DNA from: a virus
Virus record (IMG/VR): IMGVR_UViG_3300035182_000015
Location: 1-23,277 of that record
Strand: one strand, 5' to 3'
DNA: 23,277 nucleotides
The notes beneath the pieces were generated by a model. That model worked only from the letters and a program-made list of their open reading frames with translations, did not search any database and was not told the origin of the DNA. The position numbers and the translations under genes are program-made. Below, piece after piece: positions 4,716-20,949 of the stretch. How positions within the stretch are numbered: position 1 is the first letter of the stretch; every line of letters begins with the position of its first letter.

Positions 4716-5891
4716 ATGGCTGATTTTTCATTAACTACCCTCTTCGTGGTGCCAGTAGGTCAAACAAGTTTACCTAGCTCTGTCTCTACGCAGAACCTTA
4801 CAGCTGGTCAATTCGGGATTTTCCTGAATGATTATTATGCTGCAACAAATGTCACTATTGCAAATGCTCCTTATTTCTATCTTGCACAAGGTAGAACAAA
4901 CACTTATTTACAAGGATCTAAACGTTCAGACAAAATTGCTGGATGTGTAGAAGGTGGTGCTTGTAGATCTAATGTTACTGAATGGTACAAAGTGAGTGGT
5001 TGTCCTACTCCTGTAAACCAAGTAACTGATGTAACTAATTTCACAGTGAAATGTGGTGATATCATCACTCTTACACTTCGTGCTCATTCTAGTTACATTG
5101 ACACATTGTATTTCAATGGTTTCACACGCTCTGTTACAGTTCAAGCTCCTTGCTGCGATTGTGGTGGTGATCCTTGTGAGAACACTGATGTTCCTGCTTT
5201 GATTGATGAGTTAATCTTCAAACTTGAACTACGTGCTCCAGGTAACAACCCTGACAACATTAGCTTTAGCACATTCTATCAATTCCAAAGAATTGGTAAT
5301 GATGATAATGCTATTCTTCGCATCTCTGGTAAACCTCTAACTAAGTATGGTCAACCTTGTGATGTTGCTGCATTCCCTTTTGAATATGACAGAATGTACT
5401 TCCGTACTTTCGTTTATTCTGGTCCAGCTACTACTGCTGATTTCATTGTTGCTGACAAATGTAATATTGTTGCAACTGCTGAAATTACACAACGTGCTAG
5501 CTATCCAACTGGTACATCTGAAGAGATTGCACAATTAGAGAAAAACTACTACAGCTATCAAGCTGGTTATTTGAAGCATCTTTACAGGATGGTTGGTTAT
5601 AACGAGAATTTTGAAAGCTGGGTTAACTCAGGTACCACTTATGATACTTATTACATTAAATTTAATGAGTATGATAAGAGTGCTTATCAATGGGGTGATT
5701 ATATCATGGAAGATAGCATGGTGATCGTTGCTGCTCCTAATGCTACTGTTAGTGGTATATCTGCTGCTATTCAGGTTGTTTTAGAAGCTGCTCTTGGTAC
5801 TGTTCTTGATGATAATGCATGTATAACTACTACATCAACTACTACCACTGTATGGCCTACTACTTCATCAACTAGCACGCTGATTCCTTAA
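4716..5891 (+). CDS. Probable abundant virion protein with Thr-rich C-terminal tail
   Basis: This is a 391-aa protein with no enzyme motif, probably a major structural component such as a capsid decoration or other abundant head protein. It starts after an A/T-rich leader (ttaaaataaataaaa) very like that of the MCP. Its codon use (CGT/CGC Arg codons, GCT, GGT) also resembles the MCP more than its neighbours, which argues for high expression. The sequence is largely beta-like and Thr/Tyr/Asn-rich, with a Cys cluster CCDCGGDPC near residues 145-153 and extra Cys residues before it (GCVEGGACRSN). It ends in a Thr/Ser-rich tail containing TTTSTTTTVWPTTSS, the same low-complexity style used as linkers in the fibre genes. 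A strong hairpin lies 24 bp after the stop. Virion role is inferred; exact function unknown. Confidence 0.6.
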   Translation: MADFSLTTLFVVPVGQTSLPSSVSTQNLTAGQFGIFLNDYYAATNVTIANAPYFYLAQGRTNTYLQGSKRSDKIAGCVEGGACRSNVTEWYKVSGCPTPVNQVTDVTNFTVKCGDIITLTLRAHSSYIDTLYFNGFTRSVTVQAPCCDCGGDPCENTDVPALIDELIFKLELRAPGNNPDNISFSTFYQFQRIGNDDNAILRISGKPLTKYGQPCDVAAFPFEYDRMYFRTFVYSGPATTADFIVADKCNIVATAEITQRASYPTGTSEEIAQLEKNYYSYQAGYLKHLYRMVGYNENFESWVNSGTTYDTYYIKFNEYDKSAYQWGDYIMEDSMVIVAAPNATVSGISAAIQVVLEAALGTVLDDNACITTTSTTTTVWPTTSSTSTLIP

Positions 5892-9553: not shown

Positions 9554-11467
9554 ATGTCTTATATAGTAACAGTAACATTAACATCATCTAGTCCATTCAC
9601 TGGTCCTTTTGATATCTATGAAGAACCAGGTCATGCACCTCTTTTAAGTAATGTTCTTAAAACTACTTTAGAAGCTGGTGTAAATGTAGTTATTACAAAT
9701 CCTGCAACTACAAGTATTACTGTACAATCTGATAATCTGATTTGTAATAATTCTGTAACAATAGATTTATCACTTCCTGTTTGTAACACAATAGAAATTA
9801 TTGGTACATCAATAGTGAGTTGGTCAATCTTTGGTGGAGGAACAAATACATTTACATTTACAGATGTTACAATTAATGTATGTACATATACAAGTTCTAT
9901 TACACATGTTGGTGGAACTGTAAATATTACATCTGGAACAGATATTTGTCAAGATGATACAGATTGTTGGCCAACTTTAAATCTTCAAGCTGTTGGTATT
10001 GATAGATTCAATCCTAGACAAGTTACAATTTGGGGTAGTCCATATACACCTAATCAAGCTATTATACCATGGATGATTGATTATGGTGATGGCACTCAGA
10101 TTTTATACACTGGATCAAAAACTTTTAATACAATTGATGATCATATATATGCCACTCCTTTTACAGGAACAATTAAGATTAAAGCTATAAGTCTTGAATT
10201 AATAAAATCTTTAAATTGTGGTATAGCTGGTCAATCATTTACTACAGGAAGTGTAACTCTTATAGGTAGTGAGCTTACAAAGCTTGTAAATTTAGAATCT
10301 ATCACTAATATAAGTTGGAATTTAAATTCTACAGCTTTACAAATTCCAACAAATCTAGATACACTTTATAGCTTACGTGGACAAATTACAGGAGATATAG
10401 CTGATCTTCCAAGTACGCTAACTAAAATTTCACTTCTAGGAGCTGAAGCTAACTTGCTCTCAGGAAATATAATAGATTTACCAACAGGACTCACTCTATT
10501 AAGAATTGATGGATTAAATACAATTGCTGGAAATGTATCAACATTTCCTGGAGCATTTGATACTCAGATAGTTAGAATAGTAATTGGAGGTAGAAACACT
10601 ATATCTGGTAATTTAAGTGAATTTTCTACATACACTACATTAGTTGAATTTGATTTAAAAGGATTAAATACAGTTGTTGGTTCAATTTGTAATTTTAATT
10701 CAAGCATGCAACGTATTGTAATTCAAGGATATAGTAGTCCAAGTGGTGATATATCATGTTTAACTGGTAGTACAGCTTTGACAACATTATCACTTGAGAA
10801 TGATGAAACGTTAGCACCTCCAGGAACAGGTAACACTGTAACTGGTGATATAGCTAATTTACCAAGTAGTTTAATAACAATAACAGTGTCTGGTTTAAAC
10901 ACCCTATATGGTGATATAATGGATATACCAGCATCTACAACTTATTGGATAGTACGTGGTGAGAACACTATAACTGGAGATATTGCAACAATTCCTTCCA
11001 CTTGTGTTAGATTCTTCCATGGAGGATTTAGCACATTATATGGTGATATTGCAACTATACATTCAAACTTTATAAGATTTTATATTAGTTTTAAAGGAGG
11101 AGGCACATCTGATTTATCTGGAATTACAGGAGATATTCATTTTATGCCAAAGGCTAATTTAACACAGTTTTCTCTATATGGTAATCATCATGTTAATACA
11201 TATAGTGCATCTAGTGTATGGCATCCTAATATGAATGTTTGTATTGTAAACCCCACTGCTGATAGAGGAACATATTTTATACCAACTGCTGAGCTTGATC
11301 AATTGATTATAAATTTAGCAGCCACTAGTTGGACAGTAACAACATCATTTGATAATGCAATAACTTTATGTGGTACAACCTCTGGTGGTCCTGCAGTTAC
11401 ATTAGCTCTTGCTACATTAAATGCAATACCACCACCAAATGATATACTAATAACCATAGCACCATAA
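9554..11467 (+). CDS. Anchor + Cys-rich + PKD-like + leucine-rich-repeat-like tail protein
   Basis: This is a 637-aa exposed tail protein candidate. Residues 1-75 form an anchor module (TVTLTSSSPFTGPFDIYEEP, C near 60-75) shared with the genes at 11472 and 20949. Residues 76-139 look like the recurrent Cys-rich domain, ending GTDICQDDTDC. Residues about 145-225 include DYGDGTQ and HIYATPFTGTIKIKA, a PKD-like beta pattern. From about 255 to 560 there are irregular repeats of about 25 residues with G.NT..GDI..LPS (for example GLNTIAGNVSTFP, GRNTISGNLSEF, SGLNTLYGDIMDIP, RGENTITGDIATIP), a leucine-rich-repeat-like solenoid. A solenoid behind a virion anchor suggests binding to a host glycan or protein. 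Stop and next start are 4 bp apart. The assignment to LRR is by eye. Confidence 0.62.
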   Translation: MSYIVTVTLTSSSPFTGPFDIYEEPGHAPLLSNVLKTTLEAGVNVVITNPATTSITVQSDNLICNNSVTIDLSLPVCNTIEIIGTSIVSWSIFGGGTNTFTFTDVTINVCTYTSSITHVGGTVNITSGTDICQDDTDCWPTLNLQAVGIDRFNPRQVTIWGSPYTPNQAIIPWMIDYGDGTQILYTGSKTFNTIDDHIYATPFTGTIKIKAISLELIKSLNCGIAGQSFTTGSVTLIGSELTKLVNLESITNISWNLNSTALQIPTNLDTLYSLRGQITGDIADLPSTLTKISLLGAEANLLSGNIIDLPTGLTLLRIDGLNTIAGNVSTFPGAFDTQIVRIVIGGRNTISGNLSEFSTYTTLVEFDLKGLNTVVGSICNFNSSMQRIVIQGYSSPSGDISCLTGSTALTTLSLENDETLAPPGTGNTVTGDIANLPSSLITITVSGLNTLYGDIMDIPASTTYWIVRGENTITGDIATIPSTCVRFFHGGFSTLYGDIATIHSNFIRFYISFKGGGTSDLSGITGDIHFMPKANLTQFSLYGNHHVNTYSASSVWHPNMNVCIVNPTADRGTYFIPTAELDQLIINLAATSWTVTTSFDNAITLCGTTSGGPAVTLALATLNAIPPPNDILITIAP

Positions 11468-11471
11468 ACCA

Positions 11472-12275
11472 ATGATACTAATTATTACATTAACTACAGC
11501 TGGAACTGATACAGGACCTTTTAATCTATATTCAAATGTTGATGGATATATATCAGCTTTTGAGGTGGGAGTTCTAAAGATTGACCTAGTTGCAGGATAT
11601 ACATCTTATGTAGTTCCTAATGGCACAACAATGGTAAGAATTATGTCTGCTGGAGCTTGTATAAATTACATTGATCTTCCAGCTATGACAACTACCACAA
11701 CAACCACATGTTCACTTCCTGATGTTACAATAGATTCTCAAATATGGACAGGATGTAATTTAAGTGTTACCACTTATAGAAATGGAGATCCTATTCCTGA
11801 AGTAACTGATCCTACAGCTTGGGTAGCATTAACAACAGGAGCATGGTGTTATTATAATAATGATCCTGCTAATGCTGCAACTTATGGAAGATTGTACAAC
11901 TGGTATGCTGTTAATGATGTGAGAGGATTAGCACCAGTTGGTTATCATGTTCCAACAGATGCAGAATGGATCACTTTAACAACCTTTTTAGGTGGAGAAC
12001 CAATTGCTGGTGGACCTTTGAAAGAAACTGGAACTATCCATTGGAATGTTCCAAATAGTGGTGCAACAAACACTACTGGATTTACTGGATTACCAGGTGG
12101 CCTCCGTTACTTTGATGGTACATTCCTCGATTTTGGGAACTACGGACTCTGGTGGAGTGCAAGTGGAGTTGGTGCTTCAGCATGGTACCGTTACATGAAC
12201 TATAACAGTAGTTACCTATTCAGGACGGTATATGATAAGATAGATGGATTCTCTGTACGTTTAATAAAAGATTAA
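11472..12275 (+). CDS. FISUMP-domain receptor-binding protein, candidate DGR target
   Basis: This 267-aa protein consists of the same anchor module as the previous gene (residues 1-70, TLTTAGTDTGPFNLYSNVDG), a short Thr linker (73-79) and a FISUMP domain (PF09603/TIGR02145, residues about 84-267). The domain is recognised from the start VTIDSQIWTGCNLSV, the centre GRLYNWYAVND, GYHVPTDAEWITL, and the end WWSASGVGASAWYRY ... GFSVRLIKD. FISUMP domains are related to the formylglycine-generating-enzyme/C-type-lectin fold used by many DGR variable proteins. The last 60 codons differ from the rest: TAC, AAC, CTC, TTC and CGT replace TAT, AAT and AGA, which is what mutated AAC-rich template codons leave behind. 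Immediately downstream are two hairpins. The probable role is a tail tip adhesin whose binding face is diversified. Confidence 0.75.
   Translation: MILIITLTTAGTDTGPFNLYSNVDGYISAFEVGVLKIDLVAGYTSYVVPNGTTMVRIMSAGACINYIDLPAMTTTTTTTCSLPDVTIDSQIWTGCNLSVTTYRNGDPIPEVTDPTAWVALTTGAWCYYNNDPANAATYGRLYNWYAVNDVRGLAPVGYHVPTDAEWITLTTFLGGEPIAGGPLKETGTIHWNVPNSGATNTTGFTGLPGGLRYFDGTFLDFGNYGLWWSASGVGASAWYRYMNYNSSYLFRTVYDKIDGFSVRLIKD
12097..12272 (+). other. Candidate DGR variable region (VR)
   Basis: This is the 3' end of the FISUMP gene, encoding the stretch from GGLRYFDGTF to GFSVRLIKD. The amino-acid pattern matches that of DGR-diversified C-type-lectin-like tips: fixed G, WWS, AW, R and GFSVR positions alternate with runs of variable Y/N/S/D/L/F codons (WYRYMNYNSSYLFR). 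Tyr is TAC 5 times and TAT twice here, against mainly TAT upstream in the same gene; Arg is CGT/AGG here against AGA upstream. No matching template repeat or reverse transcriptase is found in this window, so the call rests on composition and domain context. Borders are approximate. Confidence 0.6.
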
Positions 12276-12303: not shown

Positions 12304-12339
12304 CTCCTGGGGGTTTCTACCCCTGGGAGTTTTATTTTA
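12304..12339 (+). terminator. Intrinsic terminator (11-bp stem, TTCT loop, T-rich tail)
   Basis: 12304-12314 (ctcctgggggt) pairs with 12319-12329 (acccctgggag) over 11 bp including two G.U wobbles, with a 4-nt loop ttct, followed by ttttatttta. This is the best intrinsic terminator in the window. It separates the fibre cluster from the downstream unit, which has its own promoter. Confidence 0.75.
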
Positions 12340-18800: not shown

Positions 18801-20949
18801 GGTGGCATATTATGGATCATTAAAGAACCTCTTTATTAATCAATGGGGACAAATGTATTCATATCAAACAATTGATACAGGATTCCAAATAGACCTTGAT
18901 ACATATACAGGATCTTCTATTAAAACAGTGTTTGGTGGAGATACATTTATTAGTGGATTTGCATTTAAAACAAAGCTTCCTTTCTTTATAGATAATAGAG
19001 TGAATGCTCCTGATGATTCAGATATATTCTATGATGAGATAGGTAATATAGCCTATCCAAAATACTGGTATTCAGGAAGATCTGTATTGAGTAATGATAT
19101 ATATGGATATGGACTAACTAACTTTATTTCTATAAAAGCTCATAATCTTGATTGTCCAAATAGTCAACTTCCTGCACCACCATTAGTTAATCCAGGTAGA
19201 ACATATTATGATGGTAAGATGTATCTATTTGCTTATGGTGTTCCTAATTTCTATTGTGAATCAAGCATTAACACCAATCTTCGTCAAGCATTTAATGATA
19301 GAGAAGGTGATTTCTGGCCTCATGTAAATACAAGTATTCCTGATGATTGGGTGCAAGAAAGCTTTGTGCCTATTGTTCAGGACAATACATATTATTATAA
19401 TGTTACATATTCTAAGCAGAATAAAGAAAACTATTTCTCTCATCTTCCTGTAGATTGGACACAAGATTTATGTTTAACATATTTTCCATTTAGAGCAATT
19501 TATTCTGATCCTCAAGTTAGCTATTCAGATGACACTGTAAATAGCTGGTTGATATATCGTCCTATATCAAGATTTGATTTTCCACAGAATTATGGAAAAC
19601 TCACTTCTTTAGATGGTATACAGAATAAAGCAATTCTTGCTAGGTTTGAGAACAAGAGTTTATTGTATAATACGTTATTAACAATTGACACTAGCAATCC
19701 TAAAGCTGCTTATATAGGTAATCCTACATTATTCACTGGAGCTCCTCCTGTGGATTTTGCAGAAACAGATCTTGGATATGTAGGTAGTCAACATAAATTC
19801 TTATTAAAGATTCCTCAAGGACAAGTTACTGTTGATGCTAAAAGAGGACAAATATTCCTTGTTGGAGGAGATGGTGCTAAAGATATATCAGCATTTGGAA
19901 GTGGTATGAACAGATTCCTTACAGATCATCTTTCATTTGAAATCTTAAGATATTTTCCTAAAGCATTGGTTGACAACCATTTCAAAGGACTTGGGTTACA
20001 TGGAGTTTATGATTCTAAGTATGACAGGGTGATATTTACTAAGTTGGATTATATTCCTCTTAATAAGAATATAATATATGATGAGGTTGAAAGAGACTTC
20101 TATTTACAGCAAGTAATTAATGGTGTGACAGTGAGGACTCTTGTTTATCTAACAGATGTAGAATACTTCTGTAATAAGTCTTGGAGTTTGTCATTTAATA
20201 TAAACACTAATTCATGGGTGAGTTTCCACAGTTATATTCCAAATTGGTATATAGCTGAGAACAACTTCTTCTATTCAGGAATTAATGGAGGATGTGATAT
20301 AGAAGCTTTAGCTGCAGAGGTGCTTCCACAAACTACCACTTCTACCACCACTCTTGTTTTTCCACCACTACCTACAACAACTAGTACATCAACCACTAGT
20401 CTTGATTGTGCATTAGATGGTAATGTAATTGTTAACACTCCAAGACCTGTATCAACAACTACAACCACTTCATCAACCACTTCTAGTACAAGTACAACAA
20501 CAACAACCACTACATTGTGTTCAAATTGCGATACATATATAATAACAAACACTGGTATTTGTCCACAAGAGGTTACAGTAACAAGTTGTTTTGGAGAAAC
20601 ACGTACAGGAATAATAGAGGTAGATGGCTCTTTTGTTATATGTTTATGTGAAGCTCCTACACTTCCTACAGATGTAATATATACATACATAACTGCAGGA
20701 TGTACTAACTGTTTCTGTTACACTCTTAATAATACAACAAGTGTAGATCAAGATGTAACATATTCAGATTGTAATGATGATACACAAATTATTACATTGA
20801 TTTCTGGAGAAACCACTTATATATGTTCAATATATGGTTCACAGATAATTCCTACAGGTGTAACATCAACATTAGGAACCACTTGTACATATAATGTAGA
20901 ATGTGATCCTTGTTATTCAACAACAACAACAACTACCACTATACTATAA
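15859..20949 (+). CDS. Muzzle-like giant tail protein with Thr-linker/Cys-rich C-terminus
   Basis: This 1696-aa protein resembles the crAss-like muzzle protein (crAss001 gp44 type), which forms the wide barrel at the tail end through which cargo and DNA leave. The family-typical opening is EYNLGRLGMNMDQTNNQIQK, then GVVSYALNAAVENFDANSVN, and later TEIYWTDGLNPRRYLDLD and YDEVERDFYLQQ. Residues 1 to about 1488 form the core, ending at FYSGINGGCDIEALAAEVLP. Beyond this lie a Thr linker (1490-1515), a short stretch (DCALDGNV), a second Thr/Ser linker (1533-1553), two copies of the Cys-rich domain also found in the fibre genes (CSNCDTYIITN..., CFCYTLNN...), and a terminal Thr run. Its stop overlaps the next start by one base, and the next gene may supply the missing C-terminal part. 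Confidence 0.8.
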   Translation: MAEQQQGGNITPEYNLGRLGMNMDQTNNQIQKGVVSYALNAAVENFDANSVNYQNEPGNELCVTFPTGFHLIGTHFINEKAKHVFFLVNPDTGDSEIGYMENNDCIYRTYVSAPCLNFNIDYPIHKVVHKITNCTTEIYWTDGLNPRRYLDLDHIDSVYTTKPGTRVCDNQLIPVIDCNKLKIQPNFNIPELEVVDITTGGELKAGTYQFAIQYCDSIGDGYTSYYSVTNPTPIANTQITTLNFDYPVGRSIVLNVNNIDVTGYFKYFNLAVIKTINNIASVELVGTYFIDDNSRQVTYTGQNQTQIRLSIEDIFEKFPYYEIAQDLTAVQDVLVWDNLTSIDRINYQEIASQITLQWQSYRIPADQNYSNELNATNLRGYLRDEVYAFEIVFLLKNGKQTDGFHIPGRIVQATDETPVSVTNPDFIGEPDPATNTSPYWKIYNTGVKLSDSPGKSNNSAYKGEWEYGDFAYWESTELYPCNDNVWGALANQPIRHHKFPDVLVSPIFESAVPTIVSGKYEVKMIQNDAVFPIGVKLDVSQVSQLIINSNLTDSQKADVVGFKIVRGDRSTNKSITGKGILRNVGKYNRDETDYYYPNYPYNDLREDPFILKESNAFFQGCKTYRIDVNPASPVDVEIQYLDCTTNIITTEIYAINSGTHYLCSLSFPIIINNGTTTFIGLARYNIYRITVGSIRRGAHFTYTDPRNPDAVSIVWVCAWPWACSSKDDILSLTEPIRADGAKSYDIDLLQTITPPATAPNCGDSDVGGQLEGFDDGSRYRYVFNSPETSFGQPFLGNILKLENVMFGAGKAHFVQVKKHAMYKLLTAEAQNDAIKASNGIANFTSPMNPTAMFTAYQAYLQIYINGITRKNYTYSFNSIASYDYWANVANGIGIKQRTLDLAQYLIPGVQSVGDEHNVNNWNRESSVYLRTEDHTTNPLPFPDKTPSLLSGTISLISDYSRFTISETGACLIPGNQQDIQVVAYYGSLKNLFINQWGQMYSYQTIDTGFQIDLDTYTGSSIKTVFGGDTFISGFAFKTKLPFFIDNRVNAPDDSDIFYDEIGNIAYPKYWYSGRSVLSNDIYGYGLTNFISIKAHNLDCPNSQLPAPPLVNPGRTYYDGKMYLFAYGVPNFYCESSINTNLRQAFNDREGDFWPHVNTSIPDDWVQESFVPIVQDNTYYYNVTYSKQNKENYFSHLPVDWTQDLCLTYFPFRAIYSDPQVSYSDDTVNSWLIYRPISRFDFPQNYGKLTSLDGIQNKAILARFENKSLLYNTLLTIDTSNPKAAYIGNPTLFTGAPPVDFAETDLGYVGSQHKFLLKIPQGQVTVDAKRGQIFLVGGDGAKDISAFGSGMNRFLTDHLSFEILRYFPKALVDNHFKGLGLHGVYDSKYDRVIFTKLDYIPLNKNIIYDEVERDFYLQQVINGVTVRTLVYLTDVEYFCNKSWSLSFNINTNSWVSFHSYIPNWYIAENNFFYSGINGGCDIEALAAEVLPQTTTSTTTLVFPPLPTTTSTSTTSLDCALDGNVIVNTPRPVSTTTTTSSTTSSTSTTTTTTTLCSNCDTYIITNTGICPQEVTVTSCFGETRTGIIEVDGSFVICLCEAPTLPTDVIYTYITAGCTNCFCYTLNNTTSVDQDVTYSDCNDDTQIITLISGETTYICSIYGSQIIPTGVTSTLGTTCTYNVECDPCYSTTTTTTTIL
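20452..20517 (+). repeat. ACA/ACC/ACT-rich low-complexity DNA in the muzzle gene
   Basis: This stretch of Thr/Ser codons encodes the linker before the first Cys-rich domain of the muzzle C-terminus. Together with the run at 20325-20400 and the terminal run at 20920-20943, it brackets the appended modules. Composition is close to the linkers at 8851-8912 and 11686-11709. Confidence 0.8.

Follow-up and report, generated by a model that had tools for sequence, protein, structure and literature searches.

Is the 3' end of a phage adhesin gene the variable region (VR) of a diversity-generating retroelement (DGR) when no reverse transcriptase (RT) lies beside it, and from where would such a region have been templated? 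The gene in question encodes a 267-aa protein at 11472-12275 of a 23,277-base window, which is an entire IMG/VR record. A sequence-only reading of this DNA had described the last 60 codons of the gene as a DGR target, with both RT and template repeat (TR) absent from the window; the gene and the residue pattern that it quoted are present, and no RT was found in the window. Our preferred reading, with a probability of about 0.6, is that the VR-like segment of this gene is an orphan, partly decayed DGR VR that was templated from outside the phage.

An adhesin gene of a crAss-like phage

The source virus is a crAss-like phage, with profile searches placing it in Crassvirales by its capsid protein (PF23898, E = 1.2e-27) and its muzzle protein (PF25731, E = 3.3e-42). 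A 53.6-kb contig of the same virus (L001/G001) has 22,435 bp in common with the window, with 8 mismatches. All eight fall within 19906-20037, 132 bases of a muzzle-type gene, and the other shared 22.4 kb are identical; this cluster resembles a patch left by recombination or else a variable segment of the tail. The adhesin gene comprises the following elements:

11472-12275, + strand: gene for the 267-aa receptor-binding-type protein, with an N-terminal module, a Thr-rich linker and a C-terminal FISUMP domain (open reading frame and profile match)
11472-11666, + strand: N-terminal module, aa 1-65, a putative virion anchor (common to the genes at 9554 and 20952)
11724-12269, + strand: Fib_succ_major (FISUMP) domain, probably with a C-type-lectin-like fold (PF09603 and AlphaFold2 model)

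The FISUMP domain belongs to PF09603, which matches aa 85-266 at E = 1.6e-42 and 146.4 bits against a cut-off of 33.9. In the AlphaFold2 model, this domain has pLDDT values of about 60-92 by blocks, and aa 1-79 fall below 50. By VIA-align, the model gave Z scores of 8.2 with InvE, 7.3 with Lcl, 6.3 with FGE and 5.0 with TaqVP, and most rows were C-type lectin or FGE-like chains. The solved DGR proteins Mtd and TvpA are not in that listing, and their absence excludes nothing. Foldseek with the model gave no match at E <= 0.001 (best E 0.84), and a sequence search of the PDB gave none at E 0.01.

Residues 1-65 match the starts of the genes at 9554 and 20952 by blastp (E 0.001 and 1.3e-7, respectively), and the latter gene matches phrog_15100, a virion structural protein. 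The module that had been called a virion anchor is therefore real and related to the starts of two other genes, with its attachment to the virion presumed. A module of this kind, about 65-72 aa long (..LT..G..TGPF..), is found in all three genes (9554, 11472 and 20952), which suggests that several adhesins may use one virion site. A FISUMP domain occurs in only one (L390) of 50 records whose capsid is 96-98% identical, a set with many partial contigs, and the adhesin seems to be an accessory, exchangeable gene.

Codon usage at the end of the gene

The stretch under study had been taken to begin at 12097, which falls at the second position of codon 209; the codon itself begins at 12096. We delimit the segment as follows:

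12096-12257, + strand: VR-like segment, aa 209-262, equivalent to the template-covered stretch of relatives (third bases and mismatches at non-A positions)

The codon shift on which the sequence-only reading relied is readily recovered. Relative to the rest of the gene, the last ~55 codons are rich in TAC, AAC, CTC and TTC; tyrosine is encoded by TAC at 5 of 7 positions in the tail and 2 of 12 upstream (previously given as about 2 of 13), and codons ending in C or G make up 38% of the tail versus 13% upstream. Over aa 209-262, 15 codons end in C against 6.5 expected from synonymous redraws with the contig's own usage (p = 0.0004). The claim that this shift is confined to the stretch holds inside the gene but not across the contig: in a scan of C at third positions over 6,099 windows of 54 codons, the tail (z 3.82) ranked third, behind 1313-1474 (z 4.37) and 5127-5288 (z 3.98). 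These two stretches lie in the capsid gene and in the gene at 4716, and since they are equally enriched, codon bias alone is little proof. Most of the residue pattern that had been quoted is conserved among the FISUMP tails of relatives and, without the codons, is therefore not evidence for a DGR. From the window alone, the DGR claim would be a lead and not a result.

A third-base footprint in related phage domains

A scan of viral_contigs gave 271 relatives, of which the best 80 were kept, yielding 79 loci. From 107 tblastn matches, 106 of them near full length, removal of duplicates left 83 distinct FISUMP domains, the window's included. In the high-entropy columns of the tail, C-ending codons occur in some sequences and are absent from others. 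Among 14 relatives, the third base is set by the column whatever the amino acid: C occurs in 14 of 14 at aa 239 and 253 and in 13 of 14 at aa 214, 223, 233 and 250, and T occurs in 14 of 14 at aa 234 and 255. The 14 were chosen for C-ending codons, and the independent part of this result is the T columns and the column pattern; the set omits L048, a near-duplicate of L063, and L002_7912, whose C-ending fraction equals that of the last one taken. Template codons AAC and AAT, with their adenines randomised, leave such fixed third bases. Neither ordinary selection nor a GC-richer donor is known to us to produce third bases fixed in this column-wise manner.

Measured against a synonymous-redraw null, the AAC/AAT-template footprint exceeds z = 4 in 20 of the 83 domains and stays below z = 1 in 35. 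It is strongest in L009 (z = 9.6), where 42 of 54 third bases are as in the template versus 16.2 expected. The window's own signal is moderate and carries the caveats of the contig scan. Relatives with capsid stretches 93-97% identical to the window's (G004, G008, G048 over 97 aa only, G068 and G002) include footprints of z 3.6 to 6.7.

The tail also varies where this signature is missing. Pairs examined among the domains with no footprint differ at all three codon positions, and L022_10001 and L017_13291, which lack the footprint, are 96% identical upstream and 65% identical in the tail, with all codon positions changed; the FISUMP tail segment is swapped or diversified without a DGR footprint as well. 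Tandem FISUMP domains occur in L031, L038, L045, L014 and G453 (55392-57158), with a footprint in some and not in others, and in several tandem genes the VR is internal and the frame continues into another FISUMP domain.

Matching templates in Bacteroidota genomes

A template 24-mer deduced from the footprint, AACTGGTGGAGYTCNNCNGARAAC, has no exact match in viral_contigs, where a narrower form of it had none either, but 11 matches in one-genome-per-species bacterial assemblies (genome_contigs), all in Bacteroidota MAGs. Ten of these stretches are AAC-rich TRs, with 13-22 AAC codons, and one (L153) is a VR. Seven of the 11 genomes contain RVT_1, and in every one of these seven a match lies on the TR's contig, within about 1 kb of the TR. 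On the L158 contig (CAMAXI010000024, from a MAG catalogued as Chryseobacterium gleum), a 583-aa collagen-FISUMP target, bAvd, TR and RT stand in a row. This contig, the one of the 11 whose origin was checked, is bacterial chromosome by its genes for ROK kinase, peptidase S46 with OmpA, spermidine synthase, arginase, amidase and MlaD.

Six bacterial VRs, compared with their own TRs, show 0, 0, 0, 1, 1 and 2 mismatches at 110-121 non-A positions and 21 to 35 changed adenines; the L159 VR, aligned with gaps, has 2 of 120 non-A positions changed. With mismatches outside adenines near zero, these look like working DGRs and serve as our yardstick. Used as a tblastn query, the L158 RT aligns with six further bacterial loci at 54-63% over 360-427 aa and in pieces with another two, and the best E that it reaches in the phage loci is 0.95. 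The L158 TR (221 bases, with about 40 bases of its 3' end omitted) had no match among annotated phages and plasmids. Across viral contigs, annotated phages, plasmids and bacterial species genomes, templates of the matching type were found only in Bacteroidota. Among 299 genomes of the order of G100, the TR pattern occurred in G100 itself alone, and templates with the exact core are therefore rare in the sampled genomes.

Phage variable regions compared with bacterial templates

The freshest phage domains resemble copies of these templates. Along 176 bases of the L158 TR, L009, an 84-kb crAss-like contig, has 29 of 71 adenines changed and differs at 4 of 105 other positions (L153, being a VR, was left out of this type of comparison). 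Counted over 100 non-A positions, the best four phage VRs have 4, 8, 8 and 9 mismatches to the L158 TR (the last three being L031, L045 and L022), whereas the 35 phage domains with z < 1 mismatch their best TR at 42% or more; the truncated TRs of L152 and L157 were omitted here. No whole phage VR matches any of the TRs found perfectly outside adenines. The phages that match best are distant from the window's, with, for example, 25-29% in the muzzle protein. Among phages that share the window's capsid, non-A mismatches number 15/103 in L007, 17/100 in L025, 21/100 in L063, 27/103 in L011 and 32/103 in L002.

The agreement between phages and TRs begins at the template start and ends before the last codons. 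In the 20 relatives with z > 4, pooled, excess third-base agreement is 0.00-0.06 over aa 88-206, 0.17-0.39 over aa 207-262 and -0.04 over aa 263-267. This set was chosen by its inner columns, and only the flanks are therefore an independent result: there, the excess agreement with bacterial targets surpasses the value for the z < 1 group by at most 0.02. This flank test did not include the targets of L160 and of L161, the latter because its match is fragmented. Phage DNA 3' of the VR differs from the bacterial 3' end; ten bacterial TRs encode RC[LV]RD there, and most phages encode RLIKD.

The window's tail lies between these extremes, and two parts of the gene's end can be told apart:

12096-12158, + strand: best preserved part, aa 209-229, with 36 of 41 non-A template positions the same and 13 of 22 A positions changed (alignment to the L151 TR)
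12258-12275, + strand: phage-type 3' end (RLIKD and stop), beyond the part that resembles a template (at aa 263-267, agreement with bacterial targets shows no excess)

Over aa 209-262, 25 of 54 codons have the third base of the TR consensus, against 16.8 expected (p = 0.003), giving a footprint of z = 2.9, rank 28 of 83; a shift of the tail by -4 codons fits nearly equally well (z 2.78 vs 2.92). Against its best TR, the tail mismatches at 36 of 64 A and 31 of 104 non-A positions, which ranks 22 of 83, and its non-A fraction of 0.30 is below that of all 35 domains with z < 1, whose minimum is 0.42. The match is uneven. Residues 209-229 have 5 of 41 non-A mismatches (0.12, rank 10 of 83, against a lowest value of 0.33 among the z < 1 domains), while aa 230-247 have 13 of 32 and aa 248-262 have 8 of 25, far from any TR found. 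The first third of the segment therefore looks template-written still and the rest does not; the rest may have drifted, been replaced or come from an unsampled template.

Downstream of the gene, we found one further element:

12304-12329, + strand: hairpin of 11 pairs with a 4-nt loop, followed by a T-rich tail (sequence)

In the DGR of BPP-1, an IMH and a GC-rich stem-loop are described downstream (PMC3240598, PMC12875486). A comparable hairpin follows the gene in 3 of the 24 relatives with the strongest footprints, and those three have one common downstream sequence; with so little conservation a DGR stem-loop is improbable, and the hairpin is most likely an intrinsic terminator. As to an IMH, the best phage VR has up to 14 bp in common with the TR end and then diverges, as judged by sequence only.

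Searches for a reverse transcriptase and template in the phages

No RT was found by profile search in the 53.6-kb contig of this virus, nor was a second copy of the tail. RVT_1 was likewise absent from the 79 records with the adhesin gene (some of them near-duplicates) and from 50 records with a 96-98% identical capsid, which are mostly the longest of 80 such relatives. In 13 further records, none exceeded the RVT_1 cut-off, and one weak match below it (E = 2.1e-4) fell in a 1494-aa frame of G457; these 13 include chance pattern matches (L396, L408 and L414), one record without C-ending bias (L405) and two with the same VR (L400 and L412). The same search was positive in the Bacuni control and in L104's contig.

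Absence from partial contigs is complemented by genomes with terminal repeats. G002, G033, G023, G031 and G045 carry such repeats, which suggests that they are complete, and have no RT; G002 (z 4.7) is the only one of the five with a footprint above 4. G453, of 121,494 bases with an exact 127-base terminal repeat and distant crAss-like capsid and muzzle relatives, encodes three tandem FISUMP domains, two of which have 9/105 and 10/105 non-A mismatches to the L158 TR. In this apparently complete 121.5-kb genome, we found neither RT nor TR, only the three FISUMP domains.

Templates were sought in the phages in several ways. In the relatives' loci, with up to 10 kb of flank, no A-biased second copy was found at TR-like identity; the matches were paralogous FISUMP genes at 67-82% or short, and a few were skewed, the most skewed having 8 vs 18 of 51 mismatches (L031). 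In the Bacuni control, 13 of 14 and 16 of 18 differences fell at template adenines. A VR profile run over loci including pieces of G002 and G033 gave 73 distinct matches, none with more than 8 AAC codons. AAC-rich stretches in G001, G002, G033 and G453 (11-14 AAC codons in 120 bases) proved to be of low complexity and unlike the VR. A guessed TR pattern, TGGAACCGNAACYTGAAC, hit 13 stretches of viral_contigs, 12 of which looked unrelated on inspection; the remaining one (L104), on a contig with an RT, resembles the TR of some other phage DGR. A second AAC-rich pattern, itself of low complexity, gave at least 119 stretches; among the 80 listed, six passed a filter for neighbouring motifs, of which one, L262, is a FISUMP-type VR and none is a matching TR.

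The proposal that the target is served from elsewhere in the genome is thus disfavoured, with all relatives searched lacking an RT above the cut-off and templates seen, in the collections searched, only in Bacteroidota genomes. The wider genome search that had been suggested yielded neither an A-substituted copy nor an RT in the 53.6-kb contig, about half a genome.

Variation between close relatives

Current activity would appear as excess change in the segment between near-identical phages. In 39 of the 42 close pair rows, the segment is identical. L062 and L066 differ at 0 of 183 positions in the segment vs 170 of 10,945 elsewhere, and L004 and L005, which have a strong footprint, at none vs 90 of 7,264. 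One lineage among the 42 rows is DGR-like: L048 differs from L060/L063, otherwise near-identical phages, by 3 changes in two adjacent DGR-type codons. L055 and L070 show 6 segment changes and no excess. The window and the L001/G001 contig, perhaps from one sample, have no difference in the tail. For the most part there is no sign of current activity; for the window's VR it is unsupported, and the tail cannot be called an actively diversifying target in this virus. The two contigs in hand, covering about half a genome and compared as assemblies, show no copy, no RT and no polymorphism in the tail, the kind of findings that the sequence-only reading had named as telling against itself, yet the footprint suggests past DGR writing.

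Origin of the segment

How might a phage gene have come to resemble a bacterial template? The main rival to our reading holds that a segment of a bacterial DGR target, already diversified, was acquired by homologous recombination, with no reverse transcription on phage DNA. FISUMP genes are indeed exchangeable: of the 50 capsid relatives, a set with many partial contigs, one has PF09603. The segment differs also between genes that lack the footprint, such as L022_10001 and L017_13291. Against capture, the pooled footprint of 20 genes starts and stops at the limits of the template, with flanks unlike those of bacterial targets; the bacterial RC[LV]RD ends were not brought along, and L048 and L060/L063 differ at just two adjacent DGR-type codons. 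We regard such capture as unlikely. We consider it improbable, too, that the protein is an ordinary receptor-binding protein whose FISUMP tail is under diversifying selection, the codon shift being chance or a GC-richer recombination tract. That account draws on the two other contig stretches that are equally C3-enriched, on the 35 of 83 phage domains with z < 1, whose tails, compared in pairs, diverge strongly at every codon position, and on the identity of the tail in two assemblies of this virus. It leaves unaccounted for the match of aa 209-229 to the template (36 of 41 non-A positions, 0.12 vs 0.33 in the best z < 1 domain), the overall fraction of 0.30 vs a minimum of 0.42, and the footprints of z 3.6 to 6.7 among relatives with 93-97% identical capsid stretches.

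A phage-encoded DGR, with RT and TR in the unassembled part of the genome as had been proposed earlier, appears very improbable. Only 53.6 kb of this virus are in hand, and DGRs are reported in alpha, epsilon and zeta crAss-like phages (PMC7290462, PMC11054128, PMC12386605); but no RT exceeded the cut-off in 79 + 50 + 13 records, the terminal-repeat genomes G002, G033, G023, G031, G045 and G453 included, G453 and G002 combine a clear footprint with no RT, and the TR 24-mer has no exact match in viral_contigs.

Writing from outside the phage accommodates these observations best. The adhesin would be an exchangeable, C-type-lectin-like FISUMP head on a crAss-like phage, whose segment at 12096-12257 was at some time copied, by mutagenic reverse transcription, from an AAC/AAT-rich TR. 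The first two bases of the receptor-site codons would have been randomised and the third fixed, and the segment would later have frozen and drifted, least in its first 21 codons. Template and RT would have acted in trans, most likely from a chromosomal DGR of the Bacteroidota host, the phage carrying neither. Because no template was found in the phages and the footprint stops where the template does, we infer that this writing took place inside the infected host, and the window's tail would descend from one such event. That the stretch is a DGR variable region thus stands for part of the gene family, by the footprint in relatives and the matching templates, and for this gene probably by descent.

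Relation to known DGRs

The phages and the L158-type DGR of Bacteroidota (CAMAXI010000024) are alike in template codons, in the FISUMP target and in the variable span, with up to 101 of 105 non-A positions the same. They differ in that the bacterium holds target, bAvd, TR and RT together, whereas the phages have the target only, with another 3' end and the N-terminal module instead of a collagen-like stalk. Among crAss-like phages, DGRs are described in the LMMB and alpha genus I phages, in the epsilon phage crAssE-Sib and in zeta phages (PMC7290462, PMC11054128, PMC12386605), and these have, as the present phages probably do, tail or receptor-binding targets with a C-lectin VR. Alpha crAss-like phages are described as often having a VR without the rest (80 of 91 with a VR, 30 with a TR and 15 with complete cassettes; PMC7290462). 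Complete RT cassettes occur there within the genus; in the present phages, no RT exceeded the cut-off, and templates were seen only in bacteria. The Bacuni phages of Bacteroides uniformis (PMC8143477; MT635598), whose TR and VR we recovered, carry RT, Avd and TR in the phage genome, adjoining the target.

FISUMP/DUF1566 targets of DGRs are described in human microbiomes and phages (PMC4159848, PMC8143477). Remote targets, with the VR away from the RT, are said by Roux et al. to be missed by their own survey (PMC8144416); the present case is alike in that separation, except that here the VR would be in the virus and the template in its host. The open-access literature searched, as far as its text was available, yielded no description of a phage VR with its template in a bacterial chromosome.

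RT-based surveys of DGRs are blind to targets whose template sits in another genome, and the third-base footprint makes it possible to detect these orphan targets, whether live or dead, when no RT is at hand. Since the fresher phage VRs match bacterial templates and no such template was found in the viruses searched, phages of this kind may borrow their hosts' diversity machines. The broader proposal, that environmental crAss-like phages keep orphan VRs which chromosomal DGRs of their Bacteroidota hosts rewrite in trans, is a tentative one that we hold to be possible rather than probable. If it is true that host DGRs write phage adhesins, the tropism of a phage would hinge on a gene of its host, and the DGR that serves a bacterium's own adhesins would also feed its parasite.
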